A DNA stretch of 64,000 nt from Polyangiaceae bacterium (GTDB lineage: Bacteria > Myxococcota_A > Polyangia > Polyangiales > Polyangiaceae). Shown piece by piece: positions 2,881 to 42,150 of this stretch (position 1 is the stretch's first letter; every line of letters starts with the position of its first letter). The position numbers and the translations under genes are program-made. The stretch is from the NCBI GenBank assembly GCA_019637265.1, contig JAHBVY010000007.1, forward strand, positions 62,001 through 126,000. The letters run 5' to 3'. The notes beneath the pieces are model-generated. The model searched no databases. It was not told where the DNA came from and saw nothing but the letters and a program-made list of their open reading frames with translations.

Positions 2881-4031
2881 AGACCCTCGCCGTCATCTCG
2901 GGCGTCGGCGCCGTGACCAGCCTGGGGCTGACCGCGCCGCAGACCGCCTTCGTCTACCGCACGGGCCACGTGGGGATGCGCGAGTCCGCGCTGCTGGACC
3001 AAGCAGGCGAGAAGATCACGCTGTGCTCGGTGCCCACGCTCGATCCTTGGCTCGCCGGCGAGGCGCGCCTGATCCAGCTCGCCCTGCCCGCCCTGGAGGA
3101 GGCCCTGGGCCAGCTGGGCGAGCACGCGAAGAGCCTCAGGATCAAGGTGTACCTGTGCGTGGACGAGTGGCTCGCCGCGCCGCGCTCGCCGGCGGACAAC
3201 GCGGCAGCGGGTCAGCTGCCCGCGCAGCGCGTGGCGTCCGCGCTCTTGTTCCGCGCTCGGAGCCTCGCCCACGAGAACGTCACCATCGAGACCCGCGCGG
3301 ATGGCCCTGGCGCGCCGGGCCTGTTCCTCGAGCAGGCCTGGGAGCTCCTGAACGTCAACGCAGCTGACGTGATCGTCATCCTGGCCGTCCATTCGGACTA
3401 CGACCCGCTCATCGTGTCCGAGCTGGAGCAGCGCGGCCGGCTCTTCTCCTCCGATCACCTGGACGGCTTGATCGGGGGGGAGGCGGCGGCTTGCTTGCTC
3501 CTCACCACACCGCGCACGGCGTCCAAGCTGGGGCTCACGCCGCACGTCGCGATCCACAGCGTGGGCACGGCCTATGAGCGCGCGCGCCCGGACAACGACG
3601 ACTCCGCCTACGAGGCAGCGGGGCTGACCGTGGCGTCGCGGCGCGCGCTGACGCCGCTCACCGAGGCCAAGCTGAAGTGCGGCTGGCTGCTCGCCGACGC
3701 CACCTACGAGATGCGCGAGGTGTACGAGTGGCAGGCGCTGGTCACGCGCAGTCAGCGCGCCCTGGAGCTGCCCCAGCAAGGTGACTTCCCCGCGCACCGC
3801 CTGGGGCACCTCGGCGCGGCGGCGATCCCGGTGCTCCTCACGCTGATCTTCGAGGCGTACCGTCGGGGCGCGGCGCCGCACCCCCGCGCGCTCTTGTACG
3901 CTGGCAGCGACGCGGGGCTACGCACGGTGTTGGTCGTCTCTCAACCTGACGACTCCAAGCGCGCGCTGGAGCGACAACAGGGCGGCCCACCGCCGCCCGT
4001 CGCCTCGACGGACGGCGCCAAGACGGCGTGA
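2877..4031 (+). CDS. ketosynthase-like (thiolase-fold) protein lacking the active-site Cys
   Basis: 384 aa; a GGAGG Shine-Dalgarno sequence lies a few bases before the ATG. The N-terminus 'VISGVGAVTSLGLTAPQTA' matches the start of beta-ketoacyl-ACP synthases. A middle segment 'LIGGEAAACLLL' corresponds to the E-G-A-A region of those enzymes, and a late 'HRLGHLGAAA' corresponds to the conserved GHxxGAAG stretch. The nucleophile motif (A-C-S/A-S) has no equivalent: the aligned part reads 'ETRADGPGAPG'. It is thus probably a non-catalytic thiolase-fold protein. It lies between the DUF2169 adaptor and a TPR gene, 3 nt before the latter, which points to an assembly or adaptor role in T6SS effector handling rather than fatty-acid synthesis (inference). 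Confidence 0.7.
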   Translation: MKTLAVISGVGAVTSLGLTAPQTAFVYRTGHVGMRESALLDQAGEKITLCSVPTLDPWLAGEARLIQLALPALEEALGQLGEHAKSLRIKVYLCVDEWLAAPRSPADNAAAGQLPAQRVASALLFRARSLAHENVTIETRADGPGAPGLFLEQAWELLNVNAADVIVILAVHSDYDPLIVSELEQRGRLFSSDHLDGLIGGEAAACLLLTTPRTASKLGLTPHVAIHSVGTAYERARPDNDDSAYEAAGLTVASRRALTPLTEAKLKCGWLLADATYEMREVYEWQALVTRSQRALELPQQGDFPAHRLGHLGAAAIPVLLTLIFEAYRRGAAPHPRALLYAGSDAGLRTVLVVSQPDDSKRALERQQGGPPPPVASTDGAKTA

Positions 4032-4034
4032 GCC

Positions 4035-5864
4035 ATGTCGGCCGTGGACGAAGCTTCGAGCGAGGCCAGCTCCCTCCAGCGGACCCATCAGCTCGCGCTC
4101 ACCGCGCTGGCCGCTGGGGAGCTGCCGCGCGCCGCGAGCCTCACCCTCACGCTGCTCCAGCAGCAGCCGCTCAACGTCGCGTACCAAGCGCAGCTCCGGC
4201 GCGTGATCGCGCTGAGCCCCGACCCCATCGCCCTGGCGCCGCTCACGCAGCCGATGGAGCTCGATCAGGCGCTGCTCCACGCCTTCATCCTGGCTGAGCT
4301 GGGGCGCCACGCGGACGCCGCCGGGCTCCTGCTCGACGTGCTGGGCGCGGTGCCGGGGCACCCCACCTGGGTTTGGCTGGTCACTTGGGTGCGTGAGCTG
4401 ACGCCCATCGCGCTGCGCGAGTCGATCGGCGGCCTGACGCGGCGACTCGCGGTGGCGGCCAACGTCGCGCGCACCAGCCTCGGCGTGCCTGGGCTCGGCC
4501 CCTTGCTCCAGATCACGCGGCTGCTCGCGGAGCGCGCGCCCGAGGAGCTCGAGCTCCAGCTGTTCGAGATCACCCTGCTGCGCCAGGCGGAGCGGCCGCT
4601 CGAGGCCGCCCAGCGCGCCCGCGCCTGCCGTGAGCGCACACCGAGCTGGCGCTCGGAGATCGCCTACGCGCAAGCCCTACGCGAATCCGGCGAGCTCGAG
4701 CTCGCGGCGCAGAGCCTCGAGCGCGCCACCCAGCATGAGCCGAGCGAGCTCAGCACCTTCCTCGATCTCGGCGACGCCCTGCTCAGCCTCGGGCGCCCCC
4801 CCGAGGCGCTCGCCGCGTACCGAGCCGCGCTGGCGCTCGAGCCAGATCATCCCTGGGCCACCTCCAGCGCGCTGGCCGCAGACTATTTCCTTGGAGAAAC
4901 ATCGAAGCTCGACGCGCTGGTGGAGCGCGCGGACGCAGGCGACGCGCGGGCGAGCGCCCTCATCGGCGCGCTGTTCCACCCGCCCTGGGTCAGCTCCCTG
5001 CCGCTGCCGCTCGACCCCGAGCTGCTCGCGCTCTCCGCCGCCATCGAGGCGCTCAAGCAGCACCCCGCCGAAGCCACCGCAGAGGAGCCCGCCCAGATCC
5101 GGCTGGAGCTGGCGCAGCTCGGCGCCCCGAGCCTCCAGCTCGGCTTCGTGCTCGGCGCGCGGCTGCTCGGTCACCAGGCGAAGCTGACCCTCGCCATCCG
5201 CCACGTGCCGAAGCCCGACCCACGGCAGGTCGCGGGCCAACCGCTGTTCAGCGTCTGGCGCTACCACGGCACGTCCCCCGCCGCCGCGGTGCCCCCGCCG
5301 AGCGGCGAGCTCAGGCCCCTGATCGAGGCGCTAGCCAGGTGCCCTTACGACCTCGACGCCTGGGCCAACCACGCCGCCGAGCTGAGCCGCTCCCTCCCGC
5401 CTACCTGCGTGGGCGAGCTGTTGTCCTCCCTGGTGCACATCCACCCGCCGAGCACCGACTCCGGCGTGGAGGCGCTGCACCCGATGGACTGGGTCCAGCG
5501 CGTCCAAATCGCGGCGTGCCTCTTGATCGCCCAGCTGGAGACCTCCTGGGAGGGGACGGTGCGCGAGGCCGCGCTCAGCTCGCTCTGCGACGGCCCCATC
5601 GACTGGACCACCAACGCCGCCCTGGTGGCGCTCGCCAGCGTCGCGCGGCGCGAGCCCCAGCACGAGCCGCACGTGGCCGCGCTGTACCAGCGCGTCTACG
5701 ACCGCCTCCCCACCGACGGGAGCTTCAGCTGCGTGCTGCACCCGCTCGCGAGCCTGTGGGCGAGCCTCCCCGGCACCTCACCCGAGCTCCGCGGCCGGTT
5801 GTACTCGCTGCGCGCCCGGGTCGAAGCCGCGCTCCGCCGCGCGCGGGCACAACAGCAGCGATAG
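4035..5864 (+). CDS. TPR-repeat protein of the T6SS accessory operon
   Basis: 609 aa, Ala/Leu-rich and helical. It begins 3 nt after the stop of the ketosynthase-like gene, so translation is likely coupled. Clear tetratricopeptide repeats lie around residues 190-290, for example 'LGDALLSLGRPPEALAAYRAALALEPDHPWA' (quoted in pieces: LGDALLSLGRPPEALAAYR and AALALEPDHPW). No signal peptide or membrane segment is seen, so it is probably cytoplasmic. TPR proteins are protein-binding scaffolds; next to DUF2169 and upstream of a T6SS effector it may serve in effector loading. The exact partner cannot be read from the sequence. Confidence 0.75.
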   Translation: MSAVDEASSEASSLQRTHQLALTALAAGELPRAASLTLTLLQQQPLNVAYQAQLRRVIALSPDPIALAPLTQPMELDQALLHAFILAELGRHADAAGLLLDVLGAVPGHPTWVWLVTWVRELTPIALRESIGGLTRRLAVAANVARTSLGVPGLGPLLQITRLLAERAPEELELQLFEITLLRQAERPLEAAQRARACRERTPSWRSEIAYAQALRESGELELAAQSLERATQHEPSELSTFLDLGDALLSLGRPPEALAAYRAALALEPDHPWATSSALAADYFLGETSKLDALVERADAGDARASALIGALFHPPWVSSLPLPLDPELLALSAAIEALKQHPAEATAEEPAQIRLELAQLGAPSLQLGFVLGARLLGHQAKLTLAIRHVPKPDPRQVAGQPLFSVWRYHGTSPAAAVPPPSGELRPLIEALARCPYDLDAWANHAAELSRSLPPTCVGELLSSLVHIHPPSTDSGVEALHPMDWVQRVQIAACLLIAQLETSWEGTVREAALSSLCDGPIDWTTNAALVALASVARREPQHEPHVAALYQRVYDRLPTDGSFSCVLHPLASLWASLPGTSPELRGRLYSLRARVEAALRRARAQQQR

Positions 5865-10178: not shown

Positions 10179-11246
10179 ATGGGTAAAGTAACCGCTTGCA
10201 AGACGGACTGCGTCACCAAGAAGTCCGGCCACAACTGCGTGGGCATGGCGGTGAGCGTGTGCACCACGCCCGCCGCGCCGAGCCCCATCCCGCTGCCGTA
10301 CCCCACGACCGGCACGGTGGCAGAGGGCATCACCGACCAGGCGATGCGCACCAAGATCACCGGCGCCGACGTGATGACCGTCGGCTCCGTGATGAGCAAG
10401 TGCCACGGTAACGAGCCGGGCACCTTGAAGGAGGTGGTGAGCCTGAACACCGCCGGCCCGAGCTTCCCCATCATGGGCGCGCCCACGGTGCTCATCGAGC
10501 TGGGCATGGCGGGCATCACCGGCAGCCCAGGGATGATGAACAAGGGCATCACCGTCGGCGGCGGGGGCAGCGCCAGCGGCGCGGGCGGGGGTGCGGGCGG
10601 GGGTGGCGGAGGTGGTGGCGGCGCCGGAGGGCCTTCGGGCTCGGGGCCCCAAGGGCCATCCGGCGGTGGCGGGAGCGGCGGCGGCGGGAGCAACAGCGCC
10701 GCGGCGCCGCCCCCCGCGGGCGTCAGCCAGGAGGAGGCCGACTTGGCGGCAGCGCCAGGCAACAGCCCGGAGCAGATCGCCGCGCGGCAGAAGTTGGCGG
10801 ACGCGTTCTACGCGGAGAACTGCCCAGGCATGACGCCTGCCCAGATCGCGCAGCACACGGCGGGCATCGATATGAACGAGCCGGTGCGCACCGTCACCAT
10901 CCCCCCTGGCGGCGGCGGGCCGAACGGCGACCAGCTCTACCAGTGGGAGCACCCAACTTGGGGGACGGGTCAATACTTCGCGTCCGACCCCAACACGACC
11001 CCGTCCGAGCTCGGCATCAACAATCGGGTCTTGGTGGATGGCGAAGGGAACACCCCCGCCCGCGTCGCGCCGCGGCAGCAGCACTCCTACACCGCCTCTG
11101 AGGATCAGCCCGCGGTGGGCCTCCAGAGCACCGCCGCGCCGGTGACGGACACCTGGTCGCACAGCGGGGAGCCGAAGGAGACGACCGGCGGCGGCACCCA
11201 GACGTTCATTCCACGCGGCAATCAAGGCGGCGTGGGCCGAAGCTAA
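10179..11246 (+). CDS. T6SS effector: PAAR-like DUF4150 domain + Tse6-type (Ntox46) toxin domain
   Basis: 355 aa. Residues 1-125 are a DUF4150 PAAR-like domain ('CKTDCVTKK', 'PIPLPYPTTG', 'GSVMSKCHGNEPGTL', 'SPGMMNKG'), which caps the VgrG spike. A Gly/Ser/Pro-rich linker spans about 128-170. The C-terminal part from about 185 carries the order of motifs of polymorphic toxin type 46, the class of the P. aeruginosa Tse6 toxin: 'GIDMNEPVRTVTIPPG', 'LYQWEHPTWGTGQYFA', 'PSELGI', then STAAPVTDTWS (317-327) and 'GGGTQTFIP'. Tse6 destroys NAD(P)+ in target cells; the same activity is inferred here. Unlike Tse6 there are no hydrophobic transmembrane segments and no adjacent DUF1795 chaperone gene. 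The immunity gene follows 15 nt downstream. Confidence 0.85.
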   Translation: MGKVTACKTDCVTKKSGHNCVGMAVSVCTTPAAPSPIPLPYPTTGTVAEGITDQAMRTKITGADVMTVGSVMSKCHGNEPGTLKEVVSLNTAGPSFPIMGAPTVLIELGMAGITGSPGMMNKGITVGGGGSASGAGGGAGGGGGGGGGAGGPSGSGPQGPSGGGGSGGGGSNSAAAPPPAGVSQEEADLAAAPGNSPEQIAARQKLADAFYAENCPGMTPAQIAQHTAGIDMNEPVRTVTIPPGGGGPNGDQLYQWEHPTWGTGQYFASDPNTTPSELGINNRVLVDGEGNTPARVAPRQQHSYTASEDQPAVGLQSTAAPVTDTWSHSGEPKETTGGGTQTFIPRGNQGGVGRS

Positions 11247-11261
11247 GGTCTAGACACTCCC

Positions 11262-11567
11262 ATGCCGCAGCCCAACCTCATCCAGAGCAAGCTCACCTGG
11301 CGCTTCATGCTCCAAGACGCGAAGAAGCGCACCGAACAGATGCTCAAGGTCGATCCGGACTGGCAGCTCGCCAAGGTGATCTCGCGGCAGCTGGAGTTCA
11401 TGGAGGAGTGCACCCGGGGCGAGCGCTCACCGACCCCGGAGGAGGCGGGCCGCATCACCATCGGCCCCATCGGCGCCAAGAACTTCGAGGAGAGCGATCC
11501 GGAGTATGCCCAGTGGCTCGGCGAGCTCGAGTACGCCTTCCGCGTGACCTGGTCGCGGCTGCCTTGA
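11262..11567 (+). CDS. Tsi6-like immunity protein
   Basis: 101 aa, probably all-helical and cytoplasmic. Length and pattern fit the Tsi6 immunity family, which binds and blocks the Tse6 NAD(P)+ glycohydrolase. The most telling segment is 'ITIGPIGAKNFEESDPEY', which corresponds to the conserved L-x-G-x-I-x-x-K-x-F-x-x-x-D-P stretch of Tsi6. It directly follows the effector gene, 15 nt after its stop. TAGACA at 11251 lies close to the ATG and could provide separate low-level expression, useful for immunity without effector synthesis (inference). Confidence 0.82.
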   Translation: MPQPNLIQSKLTWRFMLQDAKKRTEQMLKVDPDWQLAKVISRQLEFMEECTRGERSPTPEEAGRITIGPIGAKNFEESDPEYAQWLGELEYAFRVTWSRLP

Positions 11568-13471: not shown

Positions 13472-14476
13472 TCACCCACCCTCACCCGACTCGAAGACCC
13501 GCCCCCAAAGCGAGGGCTCGCTCTCGAGCAGCTCCCCCTCCACCAAGGTGAAGACGCGCTCGAGCTCCGCGCGTCGCAGCATGCGACCCATGGAGTCCTC
13601 GGCGACCACCTGCTCCTGCACGCGGATCCGGTTCGCCTCGAACTTCGGCGACGAGCTCAGGCGGTAGGTGATGGCGCCGCCCATCCCGGGCTCCGCGTTG
13701 CGCGCCACGCCGACGCGCTCGAGCGGCACCTGCGCCGCGAGCTTCAGCTGCCCCTGACGCGGTAAGAACACGTGAAGCAGCGTCTCGCACGGGCGGCTCG
13801 AGCCTTCGCCCTCCGTGCAGCCCTCGGCTTGCACCGTCGGGATCACCTCCGAGCCCATGCGCTCGATGCGGAGCTTGGAGCGCTCCGCGGGCCCGCGGTA
13901 CACGCCCACGCCGTAGGCCTCCGCGTGATCGGGTAAGGTGCGCACCAGCGCGAGCGCGCCGCCGGCAGTTCCATCTGGAAATGCTTGGGTGCGGAGCCAC
14001 ACGAGCCGGAGCCGGCTCCCCCCGGCGCCGAGCACCACGTCACCTTCTTTGATGCGGAACGGCCAGCCACGGAGCGCCCGACTGCCGCTCAAGGTGGGGG
14101 AGTCGTAGACGCCACGACCCGCGCAGTCGCGCGCGTTCTCGGGCAGCTCCTGACGCCGCTCGTCGAAGCTCGGGAACACCAGCTTCCAATACTGCTCCTC
14201 ACGCAGGCTCCGGCTCGCGCTGGATGTCTTGCCCTGAGGCGGGAGCCGCAGCACACAAGCGGGCACCGGCGCGACGCGGCGCGTCAAGTCGCCATCCAAC
14301 GAGCGAGGGATGCGGGCGGTGCAGCCCGTCTGCGTGAGCCACAAGCCCCCCAGCGCGGCGAGGGTGCCGCACCACGCCAGCCTGCCCACCCCGCGACGCA
14401 CGAGCCCCGGCTCGAGACACGCCCGCTTCCCCCCAAGGCCTCTCGCGAAGCCACCTGGACCGCCGCTACGTCGCAT
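13472..14476 (-). CDS. putative lipoprotein of unknown function
   Basis: 334 aa from the ATG at 14476; an in-frame ATG 13 codons upstream (14515) is less likely. The N-terminus has several Arg, a hydrophobic run 'LAWCGTLAALGGLWL' and a lipobox-like TQTGC, so it is probably exported and lipid-anchored, although Gln at -3 is unusual. The rest is a mixed alpha/beta soluble domain with 'DVVLGAGGSRLRLVWLRT' and 'LERVGVARNAEPGMGGA'. No family recognised. It precedes the OMP gene on the same strand with a 118-bp gap and is divergent from hcp across a long regulatory region. Confidence 0.65.
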   Translation of the reverse strand: MRRSGGPGGFARGLGGKRACLEPGLVRRGVGRLAWCGTLAALGGLWLTQTGCTARIPRSLDGDLTRRVAPVPACVLRLPPQGKTSSASRSLREEQYWKLVFPSFDERRQELPENARDCAGRGVYDSPTLSGSRALRGWPFRIKEGDVVLGAGGSRLRLVWLRTQAFPDGTAGGALALVRTLPDHAEAYGVGVYRGPAERSKLRIERMGSEVIPTVQAEGCTEGEGSSRPCETLLHVFLPRQGQLKLAAQVPLERVGVARNAEPGMGGAITYRLSSSPKFEANRIRVQEQVVAEDSMGRMLRRAELERVFTLVEGELLESEPSLWGRVFESGEGG

Positions 14477-19107: not shown

Positions 19108-20592
19108 TCAGGTCTTGTCGAGCTTACCCACCAAGCTCAGGGTGAAGAACGCACCCATGTACTTGAAGTGGGGGCGCACCTGCATGCCCACCTTGTACCA
19201 ACCTGCGTTGCCCGGCACATCCTCCACGGTGATCTGTGCCTTGCGCAGCGGGCGCCGACCGCGCACCTGCGCCGTCACGCCGTCCTGATCGGCGACGTAC
19301 TGACCGATCCACTTGTTGAGCTCGCGCTCCAAGTCCCCGCGCTCCTTCCAGCTGCCGATCTGCTCGCGCTGCATCACCTTCAGGTAGTGGGCGATGCGGC
19401 AGGTGACGAACAGGTAGGGGAGCTGGGTGCCGAGGCGGTAGTTCAGCTCCGCCTCCTTACCCTCCGCCGACTGACCAAAGTTCTTCGGCTTCTGGGTGGA
19501 GTTCGCGGAGAAGAAGCAGGCGTTGTCTGAATCCTTGCGGAAGCAAAGTGGGATGAAGCCCTCCTCGCTCAGCTCGAACTCACGACGCTCGGAGATGAGC
19601 GTCTCCGTGGGGCACTTGGTCTGGACCTCGCCCATCGCCTCGTACTGATGGAGCGGCATGTCCTCCACCGTGCCGCCCGACGCCGGGCCGATGATGTTGG
19701 GACACCAGCGGAACTTGGCGAAGCTGTCAGCGATGCGCGTGGCCATCGCGTGCACCGCGTTGCCCCACAGGTACTTGTCGTGCTGCCCGATGACCTCCTC
19801 GTTGTAGTTGAAGGTCTTGGCGGGCACCGTCTCCCCGCCGTACGGGAGCCTCAGCAAGAACCGCGGCATCACCAGACCCACCGACCGCGCGTCCTCGGAC
19901 TCACGGAACGACTGCCACTTCGCGTACTGCGGCCCCTCGAAGATGGACTTCAAGTCCTTCAGCTTGGGGAGCTCCGTCCAAGACTCCTCACCGAAGAACT
20001 TGGGCGAAGCCGCGGCGAAGAACGGCGCGTGAGCCATCGTCGCGATGGCGGCGCAGTTCTGGAGCAGCGCGATGTCCTGCGGCCCCGGGTTGAACTCGTA
20101 GTTCGCGAAGATGGCGCCGTAGGGCTTGCCGCCGAACTGACCGTACTCCTCGGTGTAGGCGATGCGGTAGAGGCCGCTCTTCACCAGCTCCGGGGCGTCC
20201 TCGAAGTCCTCCATGAGGTCGTCCTTCGAGCAGTTCAGGATCTCGACCTTGATGTTCTCGCGGAAGTTCGTGCGATCGATGGTGAACTTGAGGCTCCGCC
20301 AAGCGCTCTCCAGCTTCTGGAAGGCGGGATCGTGGAGGATCTCGCTGACCTGATCGGAGAGCTTGCGGTCGATCTCCGAGATGAGGCTGTCCACCAGCCC
20401 CTTGTCGATCTTCTCGTCCTTGTACTTCGGCGTGATGAGCTCGCTGATCAGCGCTTGCACGCCAGCCCTCGCCACCGCGTAGCCATCATCCGACGGCTTG
20501 ATCTTCGTTTCCGCGAGGATCGACTCGAGGAGGCTCCCCTCGGTCGTCTCGGTCGCCGCTGCTCCCCCCTGGGCGGATTGCTCTTCACTCAT
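19108..20592 (-). CDS. tssC: T6SS sheath large subunit TssC
   Basis: 494 aa, normal TssC length. 'AFQKLESAWRSLKFTIDRT' near residue 90, 'YGEFGGKPYGAI'-type sequence ('YGQFGGKPYGAIFANYEF'), 'IGQHDKYLWGNA' and the C-terminal 'VGMQVRPHFKYMGAFFTLS' are TssC signatures. With TssB it builds the contractile sheath around Hcp. It follows tssB by 2 nt and is the last gene of the minus-strand operon, ending at the hairpin at 19030-19068. Confidence 0.95.
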   Translation of the reverse strand: MSEEQSAQGGAAATETTEGSLLESILAETKIKPSDDGYAVARAGVQALISELITPKYKDEKIDKGLVDSLISEIDRKLSDQVSEILHDPAFQKLESAWRSLKFTIDRTNFRENIKVEILNCSKDDLMEDFEDAPELVKSGLYRIAYTEEYGQFGGKPYGAIFANYEFNPGPQDIALLQNCAAIATMAHAPFFAAASPKFFGEESWTELPKLKDLKSIFEGPQYAKWQSFRESEDARSVGLVMPRFLLRLPYGGETVPAKTFNYNEEVIGQHDKYLWGNAVHAMATRIADSFAKFRWCPNIIGPASGGTVEDMPLHQYEAMGEVQTKCPTETLISERREFELSEEGFIPLCFRKDSDNACFFSANSTQKPKNFGQSAEGKEAELNYRLGTQLPYLFVTCRIAHYLKVMQREQIGSWKERGDLERELNKWIGQYVADQDGVTAQVRGRRPLRKAQITVEDVPGNAGWYKVGMQVRPHFKYMGAFFTLSLVGKLDKT

Positions 20593-20594
20593 GG

Positions 20595-21089
20595 TCAGCC
20601 TTCCTCTCCACCGAGGCCGAGCTCGGCCAGCAGCTTCTCGCGCGACTCGCCGTCATCGAGCAGCCCCTGGATCCGCTTGCGGAACGCCGGGACGTTGCCG
20701 AGCGGGCCCTTGAGCGCCGTGAGCGCGTTGCGCAGATCCATCAGCTTCTTCAGCTCCGGCACCTGCTCCACGATGGCGTCGGGGCCGAAGTCTGCGAGCT
20801 TCTTGAACTTCAAGTTCATGCTGAGGCTCGCGCCCTCGTCGCCGGACAGGCGATCGGGCACGGACATGGTGAGCCCCAGATCCTGGCTCCCCAGCACCTG
20901 CTCGAAGTTGTCCTTGTCGACGTTGATTGGCTTGCGCTCCTCCAAAGGGCGCGAATCGGGACGACCGGTGTAGTCACCCACGAAGAGCATCTTGAGCGGG
21001 AGCTCGACCTCCTCCTGAGCGTCACCAGTCGCTGGTTTGTACGTGATGTTCACGCGCTCTTGAGGCGCTACCGAACCTTCTTTCCCCAT
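20595..21089 (-). CDS. tssB: T6SS sheath small subunit TssB
   Basis: 164 aa. 'RVNITYKPATGDAQEEVELP' followed by 'LKMLFVGDYTGR' is the typical TssB start, and 'LKFKKLADFGPDAIVEQVPE' then 'LKKLMDLRNALTALKGPLGN' are conserved. It interlocks with TssC in the sheath. Downstream of tssA by 85 nt and coupled to tssC. Confidence 0.95.
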   Translation of the reverse strand: MGKEGSVAPQERVNITYKPATGDAQEEVELPLKMLFVGDYTGRPDSRPLEERKPINVDKDNFEQVLGSQDLGLTMSVPDRLSGDEGASLSMNLKFKKLADFGPDAIVEQVPELKKLMDLRNALTALKGPLGNVPAFRKRIQGLLDDGESREKLLAELGLGGEEG

Positions 21090-33254: not shown

Positions 33255-34610
33255 TCATCGGCCCCCTGGCTCGGGCGCCGAGCTCGCCAGGTCCGCCCAG
33301 TCGCTCTGCTTTTTGGGCGCGCGCCGTGGAGCGGGCGTCGGCGCGGCGGGGACCTCAGGCGCGCGAGCTGCGGGAGCTGGTGCCGGAGCGGGCGCCGCCA
33401 CGGCGGGTGGCGCGACGAGCGAGGGGAGCAGCCACGGATCACCGCCCACCACGGGGCTGGGATCCGGCGCGGCGATGCGCGGGAGCTCATCGCGCCCCCA
33501 GTCGAAGCTCGAGGGCACCCGGCGGTGCATGGCGTCGGCGCCGTAGCCGCTCATCACCTGCGCCATCAACAGCCGCGCGCGCCCGGCGCTGCCCGAGGGC
33601 ACGTAGACGCTGAGATCACGGGTGATGCTCGGCACGAACTCACTCAAGATCGCCGGGTTGAGCGCGCGGATCTGATCGAGGCTGGTGCCCGCGGCGCGCG
33701 CGAGCAGTGACAGGTCGGTGCCCGCCGGGACCTGCAGCCGGGTGGGGTAAACCGGCGCGTCAGGCTGCACGTGACCGAGCTGAAACGCCTGCTGGTTCTT
33801 GAGCACGACCGCCGTCGCGATCACCAGCGGCACGAACTCACGAGTCGAGCGCGGCAAGGCGCCCGAAGCGACCTCCCAGAACGTCGTCTCACCGATGTCC
33901 GGCACGCGCGACACCGTGGCGTCCCCAGCGTGGTGCGCCGCGAGCGCGAGCTCCCACGTCCCGTACTTCTGGTGCAAGTCGGCCAGGCGCCGCGCGACGG
34001 CGCGCGTCGCGAGCTCCACGTCGCGCCGCTCGTCGTAGTTCGGCTTCACCGTGAGGCCGTGCAAGACCGCTTCGGTGGGTGAGAGCTGCCACAGCCCCGC
34101 GTCGCCACGGCTCGACACCGCGCCCGGTTGAAACCCGCTGGACGCGAAGGCCACGTAGACCAGATCTTCAGGCAGCGCGTACTCGCGCAGGATCTGCAGC
34201 ACCAAGTGCGCGTAACGGCCGCTCACCTTGAGCGCCTCCTCCACGCGCCGCCGCCGCCCGGCGTCCTGAATCAAACCCTGGATGTGCTGCTCCACCTCCG
34301 TGCGGTACTCGACGTGGAGCGCGGGGAGGCTCAGCCCCTCGGTCCACTTCGGGTACCCTCGCTCCAAGGTGACGCGCTCTTCCGGCGTCGCCCCGCCGTA
34401 CTCCGGTCCCCGATCCAGCGGCGCCTCCACCGCCTCTTCGGGCTCGGGCGTCACCTCGGGTAAGGCGTGCGCCGCGACCACGGCGGGCCGCTCCTCGAGC
34501 GTCGCGCTGGGAGGTGGCGGCGCGCTGGCAGGCCTGGCCACCGCGAGTCCCCCCCCGACGACCAGGCCGGCCACCACGGCGCAGGCCTTGGCTACGGCTT
34601 GACCCTGCAT
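33255..34610 (-). CDS. MltD-like transglycosylase-fold protein lacking the catalytic Glu, with LysM-like domain
   Basis: 451 aa from the ATG at 34610; the longer open frame upstream overlaps the divergent FHA gene and is not coding. A hydrophobic N-terminus (7-27) suggests export or anchoring. Residues about 95-285 match the MltD-type SLT fold ('YALPEDLVYVAFASSGFQPG', 'AGLWQLSP', 'YDERRDVELATRAVARRL', 'LAAHHAGDATV'). The catalytic Glu of the E-S-x-F motif is Ser157 here, so lytic activity is unlikely. A LysM-like segment follows ('VPAGTDLSLLARAAGTSLDQ'). The C-terminal ~70 residues are Pro/Ala-rich. Next to clpV and with a TssL that lacks an OmpA domain, it may anchor the T6SS to peptidoglycan (inference). 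Confidence 0.75.
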   Translation of the reverse strand: MQGQAVAKACAVVAGLVVGGGLAVARPASAPPPPSATLEERPAVVAAHALPEVTPEPEEAVEAPLDRGPEYGGATPEERVTLERGYPKWTEGLSLPALHVEYRTEVEQHIQGLIQDAGRRRRVEEALKVSGRYAHLVLQILREYALPEDLVYVAFASSGFQPGAVSSRGDAGLWQLSPTEAVLHGLTVKPNYDERRDVELATRAVARRLADLHQKYGTWELALAAHHAGDATVSRVPDIGETTFWEVASGALPRSTREFVPLVIATAVVLKNQQAFQLGHVQPDAPVYPTRLQVPAGTDLSLLARAAGTSLDQIRALNPAILSEFVPSITRDLSVYVPSGSAGRARLLMAQVMSGYGADAMHRRVPSSFDWGRDELPRIAAPDPSPVVGGDPWLLPSLVAPPAVAAPAPAPAPAARAPEVPAAPTPAPRRAPKKQSDWADLASSAPEPGGR

Positions 34611-34714
34611 GCGGCTAACCTCGCACACCCGCCGAGGTCGGTAGAAATAACCAACGAAATCTCTGGCGGCGGCCGCCCGCATGGCGGCATCTGGCCGGTC
34701 GCGACCCCCGCTGA

Positions 34715-34720
34715 TAGAGT
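34715..34720 (+). promoter_or_regulatory. -10-like box TAGAGT before tagH
   Basis: TAGAGT lies 7 nt before the GTG at 34728, again the leaderless pattern. It also decides the start: the open frame runs back to 34467 but the coding pattern and this box favour 34728. Confidence 0.5.
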
Positions 34721-34727
34721 CCGAGCT

Positions 34728-36023
34728 GTGTCGGCGGGTTACGGCGTACGTGTCACCAACACGAAGAATCAGTCCAGCTTGGAGCGGCGCTTCCCCAAGC
34801 TGCCGATCCGGATTGGTCGTAACGCGCTGAACGATCTCCGGCTCGATCTGCCCTTCGTCTCCGATTTCCACGCGGTGATTGAGCTGCAAGACGGGCAGAT
34901 CATGCTGCGAGACCTGGGCAGCACCAACGGCACGGTGCTGCGCTCGACGGGCCGGCTGCAGCCGAACCAGGTGATCGGCCTCCAGGAGCACAACTACGAG
35001 TTCGCCATCGTCTCGGTGGTGTTCACCATTTTCCGCACGGAGGTGGAGGTCGCCCCCACCAGCGGGCACCCCCCGCTCGGCGTCGCCAGCTACGCCTCCA
35101 CCGGCATGGGCGGCCCGCCAGCGCCCGCCGCCGCGGATCAGCTCACGCCCTACGCGAGCTACCGGCGGGCCTTCACCGAGCTGATGACCAGCATAGGCGA
35201 TCAGATCGGCCGCTACCCTCCCGAGCAGCGGGTGCCGGCGCTCCAAGCGATGGCGCGTGAGATGCCTGCGCTGCTCCAAGAGCCTGATTTTCAGCGTTTG
35301 GCGGCCTCGCTCGGCTCGCCCATCCCGCACGCGCCGCAGAGCACCACGCGCGAAGAGGCGGTGGCGCTGCAGGGCTTGAAGGAGCTCGCCAGCCGCCTGG
35401 TGCCGAGCCGCGGCGCCCCTGAGTCGGTCGATGACTTGGTGCTGTTCCTGACCAAGCTGCAGGAGGTGCTCAGCATCTTCTTGCAGACGTTCGTGCCGCT
35501 CCGCGACGGCTACCGCCAATTCCGTTCCGACATGGAAATCAGCGGCTCCGTCGACGTCGGGCGCTCCTCCCAGGTGGTGAGCCGCGCCAAGTCGGCGGAG
35601 GAGCTGGCCACCGGGCTGCTGGACTGGCGCACCCCGGTCTCCGACGCGCCGCGGGAGATCGAGGGGACCCTGGCGGACCTCATGACGCACCACATCGCGA
35701 TGATCAACGGCGTGATGCAGGGGGTGAAGTCGCTCCTCAAGGAGCTCAGCCCGGCGGCCATCGAGCGCATGCTCGACGACCCCAACGCGCGCAAGCCGGA
35801 GGGCATCACCGTGGGCCCGTTCCGCTTCAAATCGCTGTGGAAACTGTATGAGCAGCGCTACGGTGACCTGACCAGCGAGGAGAAGCACGTCTTCTCGCTG
35901 CTGTTCGGCGACGCGTTCGCGCAGGCCTACGGCCGCTACCAAGGCGGCAGCCGGATGGCGACGCGTCACCTCGGCGTCGTCGGCCCCGGCGCCGGCCCCT
36001 TCAACCCGGGTACCACGCGCTGA
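34728..36023 (+). CDS. tagH: T6SS-associated FHA-domain protein (TagH type)
   Basis: 431 aa from GTG 34728. An N-terminal FHA domain spans about 20-100 ('PIRIGRNALNDLRL', 'DLPFVSDFHAVIEL', 'RDLGSTNGT'), with the GR, S-x-x-H and S-T-N-G residues of phosphothreonine recognition; the S-x-x-H serine is present as 'SDFH'. A linker is followed by a long C-terminal helical domain about 190-415 typical of T6SS FHA proteins, ending 'FSLLFGDAFAQAYGRY'. FHA proteins receive a threonine-kinase signal that switches T6SS on. No kinase is in the window. It is divergent from the transglycosylase-like gene, 117 bp apart. Confidence 0.88.
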   Translation: MSAGYGVRVTNTKNQSSLERRFPKLPIRIGRNALNDLRLDLPFVSDFHAVIELQDGQIMLRDLGSTNGTVLRSTGRLQPNQVIGLQEHNYEFAIVSVVFTIFRTEVEVAPTSGHPPLGVASYASTGMGGPPAPAAADQLTPYASYRRAFTELMTSIGDQIGRYPPEQRVPALQAMAREMPALLQEPDFQRLAASLGSPIPHAPQSTTREEAVALQGLKELASRLVPSRGAPESVDDLVLFLTKLQEVLSIFLQTFVPLRDGYRQFRSDMEISGSVDVGRSSQVVSRAKSAEELATGLLDWRTPVSDAPREIEGTLADLMTHHIAMINGVMQGVKSLLKELSPAAIERMLDDPNARKPEGITVGPFRFKSLWKLYEQRYGDLTSEEKHVFSLLFGDAFAQAYGRYQGGSRMATRHLGVVGPGAGPFNPGTTR

Positions 36024-38724: not shown

Positions 38725-40653
38725 ATGACCGGAGAGCGGCAGGGTGGCATCGCGGGTTTTGGGGTGGGCTTTGGCAGCGGGGCGGGGGCGCAAGGTCACC
38801 GTGATGGTGGCGCGCCGGAGGAGGCGAGCCCGCGCGGGCCGCTGCGGGTCGTCGTGGTCAGTCAGGTCACCGCTCAAAGTGAGGTCTCGACGGGGCCTGA
38901 GCCGCTGGTCGCCGTCCGGCGACTCAGCCGCGCGGAGTTCGACCGCGTGTTCACGGAGCTCGCGCCGAGCCTCGCGTTCGAGCTCGAGACGCAGGTGGTG
39001 GACAAGCCGCTCCGGGTCGATCTCCGCTTCGAGCGCCTCAAGGCGCTGAAGCCCCAGAGCCTGGTCGAGCAAGTGCCCGCGCTGCGCGCCCTGGTCGACG
39101 CGAAGCGCATCATTCAGCACTTGATCGAGGGGCGGGTTGGGCAAGGCGCGGCGCGGGACCAGCTCGCGCGGGTGCTGCCTGCGGGGCGCTTCAATGACGA
39201 TCTGTGTCGCGAGCTGGCGGGAGCGGACGCCGCGCCTCACGCCGCCGCGAGCGCGCCTTCATCCGCTACGTCCGCTCCCGGGGCGCCGCCCGCGGCGCCC
39301 CCCGCTGGGGGCGGTTTGGATGCGCTCCTGGCGCAAGTCGACATCGCGCCCAGCGCCGAGCCCGGCGGAACCGGCGTCACGCAGCAGGCGCCCACGGCGT
39401 CCAACGCGAGCGCCTCGGCGCTGGTGTCTGCCGTGGCGCGCGCCGCGGTGGGGAAGAAGTCGGGCAGCGGTGGGTCCACCGCGGAGCGCGCCTTGACGAA
39501 GATCGAGGGCCACTTCCAAGCGCTGCTAGGCGCCATCTTGAGGCACCCGGAGGTCCAACGCCTGGAGGCCACCTGGCGCGGCCTGTGGCTGCTCTTGGAG
39601 CGCGCGAACCTGGGCGCCGGCGTGGAGCTCGACTTGCTGCCCGCGGGTGACGGCACGGAGGGGATCAGTCAGGCGCTCACCCGACTCGCGGCGCGCGAAG
39701 GGATCCACGAGGCGGAGCGCGCTCCGGTGGATCTCATCGTCGTGGATCGCGAGGTGAGCGCGAGCCAGCACGATCTCAAGGCGCTCGAAGCCTGGGCCAC
39801 GCTGGCCGAGCTGATGCGCGCGCCGATCGTCACCGCCGGGAGCCATGAGCTGGTGGGCGTGGATCAGCTGCGCGAGCTGTCCTTCTCCGAGCGGCGTCAC
39901 GCGGGCTCCACCGATCCGCGCGCCGTCGCGGCGCGCGCCGTCGCTTCACGCGACGCGGCGCGCTGGGTGTGCCTGACCTTGAACCGCGCGCTGGTGCGCT
40001 CGGCCTACACGGAGGAGACGGCGCGCACGAAGGACATTCGCTTCACGCAAGACCCAGCGCTGCCCGGCGCCCACGTCTTCATCCGCGGCTACTGGGTGGT
40101 GGCAGCGCTGGTGATGGAGAGCTTCGTGCGCACGGGCCTCGGCACCGACATCACCGGTCAGGGTGGCGTACTGGCTAATCTGCCGGTGCACGAGGTGGAG
40201 GACCGCGGCGAGCGCGCGGCGATCCCGGTGGAGGTGTTCATCTCGAGCGAGTCGCAGTCCGAGCTGGCGCGCACCGGCGTCGCGGCGCTCGGCTGCGCGC
40301 GCAACCGCGACCTGGTGGTGCTGAGTCACGCGCCCGTCTTCTACCGGGAGCCGAGCCAGACGGGCGGCGACGCCCGGCCCGCAGAGCTCAGCCTGGCTGA
40401 CCAACTGTTCGTCGGGCGCTTCTCCCATGCGGTGGAGATGGTGGCCGCCGCCATCCCCTCTCACACCCCGGCTCGCGCGGCGGGCGAGGTCGCGCAGATC
40501 GCCCTCTTGGATTTCTTTCGGAATCCACCGCCCGTCGGCCCCGAGGTCGAAGCCACGGTGGAGAACGGCAACCTGATCGTCACCGTCCGGCCGCGCCGCT
40601 TCGCGGGGATCGGGCTGGGTGAGGTCACCCTGGCCGCGCCGCTGGGGAGGTGA
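38725..40653 (+). CDS. TssB-TssC fusion sheath-type protein
   Basis: 642 aa. Residues about 40-170 align in order with the TssB of this locus: 'PLRVVVVSQVTAQSE' with 'PLKMLFVGDYTGRPD', 'LRVDLRFERLKALKPQSLVE' with 'LSMNLKFKKLADFGPDAIVE', and 'QVPALRALVDAKRIIQHL' with 'QVPELKKLMDLRNALTAL'. An Ala/Pro/Gly linker spans about 172-260. Residues about 265-642 are TssC-like: 'HPEVQRLEATWRGLWLLLER', 'DIRFTQDPALPGAHVFIRGY', 'TGVAALGCARNRDLVVLSHA', and the end 'VTVRPRRFAGIGLGEVTLAA'. The first ~20 residues of TssB and part of the TssC N-terminus, which interlock neighbouring subunits, are reduced. Separate tssB and tssC genes exist at 19-21 kb. It may be a modified sheath ring, a cap or a variant-sheath subunit (inference). 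A TPR gene follows 60 nt later. Confidence 0.82.
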   Translation: MTGERQGGIAGFGVGFGSGAGAQGHRDGGAPEEASPRGPLRVVVVSQVTAQSEVSTGPEPLVAVRRLSRAEFDRVFTELAPSLAFELETQVVDKPLRVDLRFERLKALKPQSLVEQVPALRALVDAKRIIQHLIEGRVGQGAARDQLARVLPAGRFNDDLCRELAGADAAPHAAASAPSSATSAPGAPPAAPPAGGGLDALLAQVDIAPSAEPGGTGVTQQAPTASNASASALVSAVARAAVGKKSGSGGSTAERALTKIEGHFQALLGAILRHPEVQRLEATWRGLWLLLERANLGAGVELDLLPAGDGTEGISQALTRLAAREGIHEAERAPVDLIVVDREVSASQHDLKALEAWATLAELMRAPIVTAGSHELVGVDQLRELSFSERRHAGSTDPRAVAARAVASRDAARWVCLTLNRALVRSAYTEETARTKDIRFTQDPALPGAHVFIRGYWVVAALVMESFVRTGLGTDITGQGGVLANLPVHEVEDRGERAAIPVEVFISSESQSELARTGVAALGCARNRDLVVLSHAPVFYREPSQTGGDARPAELSLADQLFVGRFSHAVEMVAAAIPSHTPARAAGEVAQIALLDFFRNPPPVGPEVEATVENGNLIVTVRPRRFAGIGLGEVTLAAPLGR

Positions 40654-40713: not shown

Positions 40714-42150
40714 ATGTCGACCGAGTGGGCGTTCGTGAAGCTGGAAGACAAGGTGGCGCGGCGAAACGGGATGCCGAACCAAATCCCGGTGCCGAAGGCG
40801 GAGTTCGAGCAGCTCGCGGAGCGGGGGCTCGACGGCGCCAAGGTGCGCAAGTGGATCGGCGAGTTCATGCAGCTGGCCCCTGGCTCTTGGCGCCAACAAA
40901 ACAACGAAATCGCCTCGCGCTACGACGCCTTCCTCGCCAAGGGGATGCACTGGGACAAGGCGCAGAAGGCCTTCCAGAAGGGCGACAGTGAGGGCGCCAT
41001 CAAAGCGCTCAAGATGATCACGCGGGTGGATCGTCAGGACGCCGCCGCACAGCTCAACCTCGCGATGGCGCTCGGCGCCGCGGGGCAGTACCCGGAGGCG
41101 CTCCAGGCCTTCGACGCCATCAGCGACGTGTGCCAGGGCGATCCGGAGTATCACGTGGCGCGCGGCAACGTGAACACGGCGCTCGGCAACCGCGACGACG
41201 CGACGGCGGATTTCGCCGATGCGCTCGACGCCAAGCCGGACTGCAAGCCCGCGATGGACGGCCTGGTGACGCTCGGCGTGCTCACGCGCGTCTATGAAGA
41301 TCCCAAGGACGCCGCGAGCCTCACCTACGTGCGCGCGGACTTGCTCCCCGCTTACTTCACCGAGCTGTGGGACGCCGCGGAGCGCGACCTCGACTACTAC
41401 CTCGAGCAAGTCGCCTACCACGAGCTCGAGCGGCGCTGGCCCCTGGTCGTCGCCGCCGCCGAACGCGCGCTCGAGGCCGCTGGTGGCTCTCAAGATCGCG
41501 CCGCCGCGGCGCGGATCGCCGCGCTCCACCTGAGCGGCGATGAGCGCGCCGAGGCCGAGGCGCGCGCCTACCTCGAGGCCCACCCGGGCTCGGTGCCGGT
41601 GCTGGTGGAGCTCAGCCGCGTGCTCGGGCCGCGCACCGACGCGGGCCGGGAGCTCTTGGATCGCGCGCTCGGCGCCGATCCTGGCGATCAGCAAGCGCTC
41701 ACGCTCCGCTTCTGGCCCGAGACACCCGACGACCTGCAGCAGCTGCACGCCGCGCTGCCCGCGCTCGAGGCGTTCGCCGCCGAGCACCCGGAGGTGGCCG
41801 GCACCCAGCGCAGCGTGGCGCGCGCCTGGCAGAAGCTCCAGCGCGACGACGCGGCGCTCGAGCGCTACCAGCAGGCGATCGCGCTAGCGCCCGACGACGA
41901 CGACCTGCGGAGCGAATACTGGGCCGAGCTCGGGCGACTGCAGCGCTGGGAGGCGCTGCTCGAAGACGCCCAATCGCTGGGCGACTTGTCCCAGCGCTCT
42001 TGGCAGCTCCGCTGGTGCGAGGCAGAGGCCTACGCAGGGCTCGGCAAGCAAACGGAGGCGCGCGCCGCCTTCACCGCCATCAACCACGACGAGCGGCTCT
42101 TGGTGGATATCCGTCGCCGCGCCAAGCGCGCGGCCGAGCGCGGTCAGTGA
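40714..42150 (+). CDS. TPR-repeat protein next to the TssB-TssC fusion
   Basis: 478 aa, no signal peptide. The N-terminal ~75 residues form a distinct domain ('WAFVKLEDKVARRNGMPNQI', 'QLAPGSWRQQNNEIASRYDAF'). From about 85 on, TPR units are clear ('AFQKGDSEGAIKALKMITRV', 'LAMALGAAGQYPEALQAFD', 'WQKLQRDDAALERYQQAIAL'). The position directly after the TssB-TssC fusion suggests a partner or assembly factor of that protein (inference). No enzyme motif was seen. Confidence 0.7.
   Translation: MSTEWAFVKLEDKVARRNGMPNQIPVPKAEFEQLAERGLDGAKVRKWIGEFMQLAPGSWRQQNNEIASRYDAFLAKGMHWDKAQKAFQKGDSEGAIKALKMITRVDRQDAAAQLNLAMALGAAGQYPEALQAFDAISDVCQGDPEYHVARGNVNTALGNRDDATADFADALDAKPDCKPAMDGLVTLGVLTRVYEDPKDAASLTYVRADLLPAYFTELWDAAERDLDYYLEQVAYHELERRWPLVVAAAERALEAAGGSQDRAAAARIAALHLSGDERAEAEARAYLEAHPGSVPVLVELSRVLGPRTDAGRELLDRALGADPGDQQALTLRFWPETPDDLQQLHAALPALEAFAAEHPEVAGTQRSVARAWQKLQRDDAALERYQQAIALAPDDDDLRSEYWAELGRLQRWEALLEDAQSLGDLSQRSWQLRWCEAEAYAGLGKQTEARAAFTAINHDERLLVDIRRRAKRAAERGQ

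Follow-up and report, generated by a model that had tools for sequence, protein, structure and literature searches.

A natural TssB–TssC fusion as a candidate non-contracting protomer of the type VI secretion sheath

In a 64,000-nucleotide stretch of DNA (the window), we identified a gene for a fused TssB–TssC sheath-like protein of 642 aa (38725–40653, + strand) from Pfam matches, profile–profile matches and orthologues. The fusion was counted in 45 genomes from one class of predatory soil bacteria, where it forms one clade. Homology places the protein in the sheath superfamily, but as a variant that we call neither TssB nor TssC, because it lacks two defining features of a contracting type VI secretion system (T6SS) sheath subunit. 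The explanation we favour, with slightly less than even confidence, is that the fusion is an accessory protomer of the ordinary T6SS, which would join the TssB/TssC tail without contracting and serve as an end ring or a brake.

A conserved fusion gene in a genome with one T6SS

The reading frame is open from the ATG at 38725 to the stop at 40653. Residues 39–163 (38839–39213, +) match Pfam T6SS_VipA (PF05591; E 3.9e-13, 49.9 bits against a curated cut-off of 24), and residues 255–533 (39487–40323, +) match Pfam VipB, the TssC N-terminal domain (PF05943; E 1.5e-37, 129.8 bits, cut-off 27); PF18945 had no match in the protein. This bears out a sequence-only reading of the window, which had proposed TssB-like and TssC-like halves in one chain with an Ala/Pro/Gly linker and had staked the first half on a TssB profile hit at residues 40–170. 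The NCBIfam models TIGR03358 (51.7 bits) and TIGR03355 (112 bits) scored below their equivalog cut-offs of 97.25 and 271.5 bits, so the two halves are homologous to the canonical proteins but divergent. By profile–profile alignment (hhalign), the TssC half corresponds to residues 15–475 of the 494 in canonical TssC (E 2e-44) and the TssB half to residues 25–158 of the 164 in canonical TssB (E 7e-18). Against sheath chains in the PDB, the fusion profile gave E-values down to 3e-49 (TssC) and 4e-15 (TssB), and the TssB halves of clade III, which are weak in Pfam, still matched TssB by hhalign (E 6e-9). An AlphaFold model of the fusion, computed with four rows (the fusions of the window and of congener contig L004, and the window TssC and TssB), had a pLDDT of 45, and the interfaces are therefore inferred from alignments.

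The fusion gene is real. Full-length orthologues occur in dozens of genomes, their start codons agree with the annotated start, and dN/dS between the window fusion and its congener is 0.28/1.04 (∼0.27). Rapid divergence and an N-terminus truncated in the draft congener contig L004 would fit a decaying pseudogene or an assembly artefact, but that idea, to which we give practically no credence, is refuted by conservation: besides the dN/dS, 45 genomes have open frames of full or nearly full length, and invariant residues are present.

As the earlier reading had stated, the same window has separate tssC (19108–20592, −; TIGR03355, 696.9 bits) and tssB (20595–21089, −; TIGR03358, 181 bits) genes; both score above the cut-offs. 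It encodes TssA, B, C, E, F, G, H, J, K, L and M, Hcp, TagF and an FHA protein. Tests of the window proteins did not identify a VgrG, and the system that had been called complete therefore comprises 12 of the 13 core genes. Elsewhere in the window, a gene for a protein with PAAR-like and Ntox46 domains (10179–11246) is followed by one for a 101-aa Tsi6-like protein (11262–11567), probably a T6SS effector and immunity pair. Only two proteins in the whole genome match PF05943, the canonical TssC and the fusion, which indicates a single T6SS; the fusion would then work with that T6SS or alone.

Among 97 relatives searched, ∼20 further full-length fusions were found at 31–64% identity, and a wider profile search of the class added ∼19 more; the alignments used here hold 44 proteins (26 + 18). 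A phylum-wide sample of 141 genomes, searched with a profile from clades I and II alone, contained no fusion outside the class. A related-locus search of genome contigs yielded one locus only, and of 239 plasmid records that match part of the fusion, none reaches 80% coverage. Trees of the TssC half, built with 24 fusions and again with 37, separate all fusions from the other sequences by a branch that has 100% SH-aLRT support. A single origin is likely, although not proven, from these trees, in which the root was not inferred and some branches are long. Fusion distances track those of canonical TssC across 21 genomes (Mantel r 0.82, p 1e-4) and are ∼6 times larger, i.e. the fusion evolves ∼6 times faster. 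From these distances, the fusion probably descends vertically with its T6SS under looser constraint.

Six genomes have a T6SS of the same type without the fusion, and two of these (G021 and G059) are complete, each in one contig; the fusion is therefore dispensable. In four other genomes the fusion occurs without canonical TssC, which we do not take as a sign of replacement, because these are drafts and in those that were read the fusion contig is cut near the cluster. A 1195-residue frame in G052 (L064:9474–13061, −) has TssB-like residues 632–745 joined directly to TssC-like residues 755–1181 and is possibly an independent TssB–TssC fusion without a long linker. TssC-like paralogues without an adjoining TssB were also seen (L095:1654–2997 in G021, L096 and L101 in G050, L063:9065–11158 and L094 in G039), some of them without the N-terminal ClpV helix and one with ∼250 extra N-terminal residues.

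Sheath elements kept and altered in the fusion

In a T6SS sheath, the N-terminal strand of TssB and the C-terminal strand of TssC extend to the ring on the baseplate side (PMC5924787, PMC5813253). The sequence-only reading held that the interlocking ends of the fusion were shortened, which is correct for the N-terminal TssB arm, altered or absent in the fusions, but not for the C-terminal end. There, alignment with canonical C-termini and the profile–profile match place an acceptor β-hairpin and a C-terminal donor strand at about residues 607–642 (40543–40650, +), a sequence-level assignment, and the low-confidence model has strands at 607–613, 616–622 and 634–639. The TssB helix that binds TssC also remains hydrophobic at the contact sites defined in PMC3840085. 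Retention of the contact helix, TssC fold (with E93, R97 and R397 kept in 44/44 fusions), acceptor hairpin and C-terminal strand fits a protomer that could pair its two halves and join the lattice.

The Ala/Pro-rich linker contains a ClpV-binding-like motif, LDALLAQVDIAP (39313–39348, +). Within it, LDALLAQVDI aligns by hhalign with LLESILAETKI at the N-terminus of canonical TssC, and the form [L/I/V]-D-A-[L/I]-[L/F]-x-x-[V/A]-[D/E]-[L/I] recurs in the majority of the class's fusions. The motif resembles known ClpV-binding peptides, namely LLDEIM of VipB (PMC4239648) and SVYASLFEKINL of enteroaggregative E. coli (EAEC) TssC1 (PMC5048182).

The N-terminal arm differs from that of TssB. In 43/43 canonical TssB proteins, exactly 12 residues separate the end of the N-terminal strand from the core, whereas in the fusions a Gly-rich, alternating-hydrophobic motif lies anywhere from 12 to 94 residues before the core, and the handshake strand at fixed spacing is gone. 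In the window fusion, this motif is GGIAGFGVGFGSG-like and replaces the strand at approximately 38740–38778 (+). It is kept in nearly all clade I and II orthologues, which rules out that the strand is simply missing there, and most clade III and IV fusions are without it. The motif is doubled in one protein (G045, L050:8982–11192), and a similar one stands at the C-terminus of two others (G061, L065:11457–13244; G094, L139:8306–10093). Such a distribution would be expected of a portable binding motif.

Residues required for contraction are known from Vibrio cholerae (background also in PMC5924787). With the VipB substitution D333A, sheaths still assemble but can no longer contract, and at least two residues added to the N-terminal linker of VipA have the same effect; such contraction-blocked subunits are dominant, co-assembling with wild-type sheaths and poisoning them, and low levels of a blocked subunit cut killing 100-fold (PMC5797969). 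A third substitution, VipB K223A, blocks assembly (PMC5797969). We mapped these positions by an ungapped alignment of VipB with the window TssC (VipB number = window TssC number − 2); near D333, the alignment is without gaps from the conserved PTE to the next Leu. At the D333 position, 49/53 canonical TssC proteins have an acidic residue and the other four do not, whereas only 2/44 fusions have one (Fisher p 4e-20, from related and thus non-independent sequences). Similarly, E336 is Glu in 52/53 canonical TssC proteins versus 0/44 fusions, and K223 is Lys or Arg in 41/53 versus 4/44. The window fusion has Ser at the D333 position and Ala at K223. In clades I and II, an acidic residue is often found one position after the D333 site and might compensate for the loss.

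Loss of the D333 and E336 charges together with the fixed N-arm spacing counts in favour of a non-contracting protein, although the D333 and linker effects may not transfer from V. cholerae to the fusion. Loss of K223 counts the other way for the accessory protomer, since it might keep the fusion out of the sheath.

Gene neighbourhoods and a TPR protein

The fusion gene lies among T6SS genes in several arrangements. In clade I, it adjoins FHA and PAP2 genes and, in some genomes, also relatives of a putative lipoprotein of the window (13472–14389, −), which has no Pfam match and whose relatives stand directly beside the fusion in other genomes. Clade II fusions mostly adjoin canonical tssC directly, with exceptions in G020, G039 and G047, where ∼13–210 kb separate the two; their neighbours in this clade include genes for homoserine dehydrogenase, Asp/Glu racemase, phosphoglucomutase and isocitrate lyase, by appearance ordinary local genes. 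The clade III order is tssH, FHA, lipoprotein, fusion, with a Ser/Thr kinase gene as well in some genomes. An FHA gene adjoins the fusion or lies near it in clades I and III and in G177; the recurrent neighbour corresponds to the FHA-domain T6SS protein of the window (34467–36023, +; PF20232 and PF00498). Four genomes of another family have the order tssB-tssC-tssA-fusion-hcp, whole or in part.

These neighbourhoods link the fusion with the building of the sheath and, in some lineages, with T6SS control through the FHA/kinase branch. The tssA-fusion-hcp order favours a role in assembly or at the distal end, and the FHA and kinase neighbours favour control.

Sixty bp downstream of the window fusion, a gene (40714–42150, +) encodes a 478-aa protein with TPR domains (Pfam), a likely functional partner. 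A survey of Myxococcota genomes for the fusion and this neighbour, as the sequence-only reading had proposed, found the former class-wide and the latter in 20/21 genomes with a clade I or II fusion versus 1/68 others (Fisher p 1e-17, uncorrected for relatedness). The one such genome without the TPR gene is G039, where a profile search did not find it either. Relatives with the same T6SS but without the fusion also have no TPR gene, except for G002, an 80% complete draft with the TPR gene and no fusion, and the gene is absent from clade III and other families. In genomes of other genera, the TPR gene and the fusion do not adjoin. On congener contig L004, a protein that looks RCC1-like by eye (3029–4261) is encoded between the fusion and the TPR gene, whereas in the window these two genes are direct neighbours. 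The viral contigs searched held no relatives of the TPR protein. From this co-occurrence, we infer a functional partnership between the TPR protein and window-type fusions.

A proposed role in the sheath and relation to known systems

In the accessory-protomer explanation, the fusion, with TssB and TssC in one chain, would enter the canonical TssB/TssC tail in small amounts and would not contract. It would most likely form a special end ring, at TssA and the distal end or at the baseplate; alternatively, it would act as a brake inside the sheath that keeps it extended until firing. An N-strand that is absent or free in length, combined with a normal C-strand and a normal acceptor, would suit an end ring, or a lock interspersed among the sheath subunits. 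ClpV would extract the fusion along with the rest of the sheath, and in clades I and II the TPR protein may bind it, perhaps via the N-terminal Gly-rich motif. Dosage would be decisive, given the effect of low levels of blocked subunit in V. cholerae. The ClpV-like motif, agreement with the TssC tree, gene order and TPR co-occurrence count for this explanation, and the complete genomes that have the T6SS without the fusion, in which it is not essential, count against it. A broader form, which we hold possible with rather more doubt, is that the fusion is a natural non-contractile protomer throughout the class: built into the tail but without the N-arm spacing and the D333/E336 charges, it would be a lock or static end ring that sets the time and place of contraction, with a dedicated TPR partner in one lineage.

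Several of the same features could be read differently. Fast evolution, loss of lattice and contraction charges (K223 included), a ClpV-like motif in a flexible linker, FHA and Ser/Thr kinase neighbours and a TPR partner would all fit a soluble regulator. Such a protein would mimic a sheath subunit, bind to TssB/TssC, ClpV, TssA or the FHA protein, and set the time of sheath formation or recycling while staying outside the tail. We regard this as unlikely but not negligible, as a mere binder would have no need of the acceptor hairpin, C-terminal strand and TssB–TssC contact helix that the fusion keeps. It is improbable that the fusion is simply an extra sheath subunit, a fused tssB-tssC duplicate that co-polymerises and contracts normally. 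Its full TssB and TssC domain content and its ClpV-like motif are what such a subunit would have, but it retains fold residues while consistently differing in two features on which contraction depends in V. cholerae, there is no clear case in which it replaces canonical TssBC, and it evolves ∼6 times faster.

The sequence-only reading had suggested that the fusion caps, nucleates or modifies the sheath, still the most likely kind of function, or else forms a second structure, to which we now assign low weight. In the latter case, the fusion would homopolymerise into its own non-contractile tube or ring apart from the T6SS tail, in keeping with its two halves in one chain, as in phage and extracellular contractile injection system (eCIS) sheaths, and with its position outside the T6SS cluster in several genomes (G020, G039 and G315). 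Against this, the genome has one T6SS only and no second tube or baseplate set was seen in the window, co-evolution with canonical TssC is strong, and the TssB N-strand needed for mesh knitting is altered or absent.

The accessory protomer bears on how a T6SS sheath stays extended, what forms its ends and what times its contraction; in the published V. cholerae distal-end map, the protein composition could not be assigned (PMC5813253). The fusion is a natural sheath paralogue in which evolution has arrived, across dozens of species, at the sorts of change that stop contraction in laboratory mutants. The existence of TssB and TssC as a single chain is also of use for engineering sheaths and for classifying T6SS in Myxococcota. 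The literature searched, mostly from journals open without subscription, contained no natural TssB–TssC or VipA–VipB fusion and, as anticipated, no functional description of one.

The closest known system is the T6SS subtype i sheath (V. cholerae VipA/VipB; TssB/TssC of PDB 5urw and 5urx), to which both halves are homologous almost end to end. The fusion shares its TssB-then-TssC order and keeps the contact helix, the acceptor hairpin, the C-terminal strand and a ClpV-binding-like motif, but differs in being one chain with an Ala/Pro linker that coexists with the canonical pair, in its changed or absent N-strand and free linker length, and in the loss of acidic D333/E336 and basic K223. Myophage, R-pyocin and eCIS sheaths likewise hold a TssB-like N-terminal and a TssC-like C-terminal part in a single polypeptide; that chain is the main contracting sheath, whereas the fusion is a re-fused T6SS-type TssB and TssC, extra to a canonical sheath. 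PVC and AFP have multiple sheath proteins (PMC8894135), a precedent for several sheath paralogues per tail, but they belong to a different contractile lineage, and the likeness considered here is that of the common sheath fold. TssA/TagA and TagJ are accessory T6SS proteins that act on sheath ends or ClpV recruitment, as proposed for the fusion, and unlike it have no sheath homology. The engineered VipA-N2 to N7 and VipB-D333A variants (PMC5797969) resemble the fusion in having an N-linker of altered length or in lacking the D333 charge; these are laboratory mutants in separate chains, whereas the fusion is natural and a single chain.
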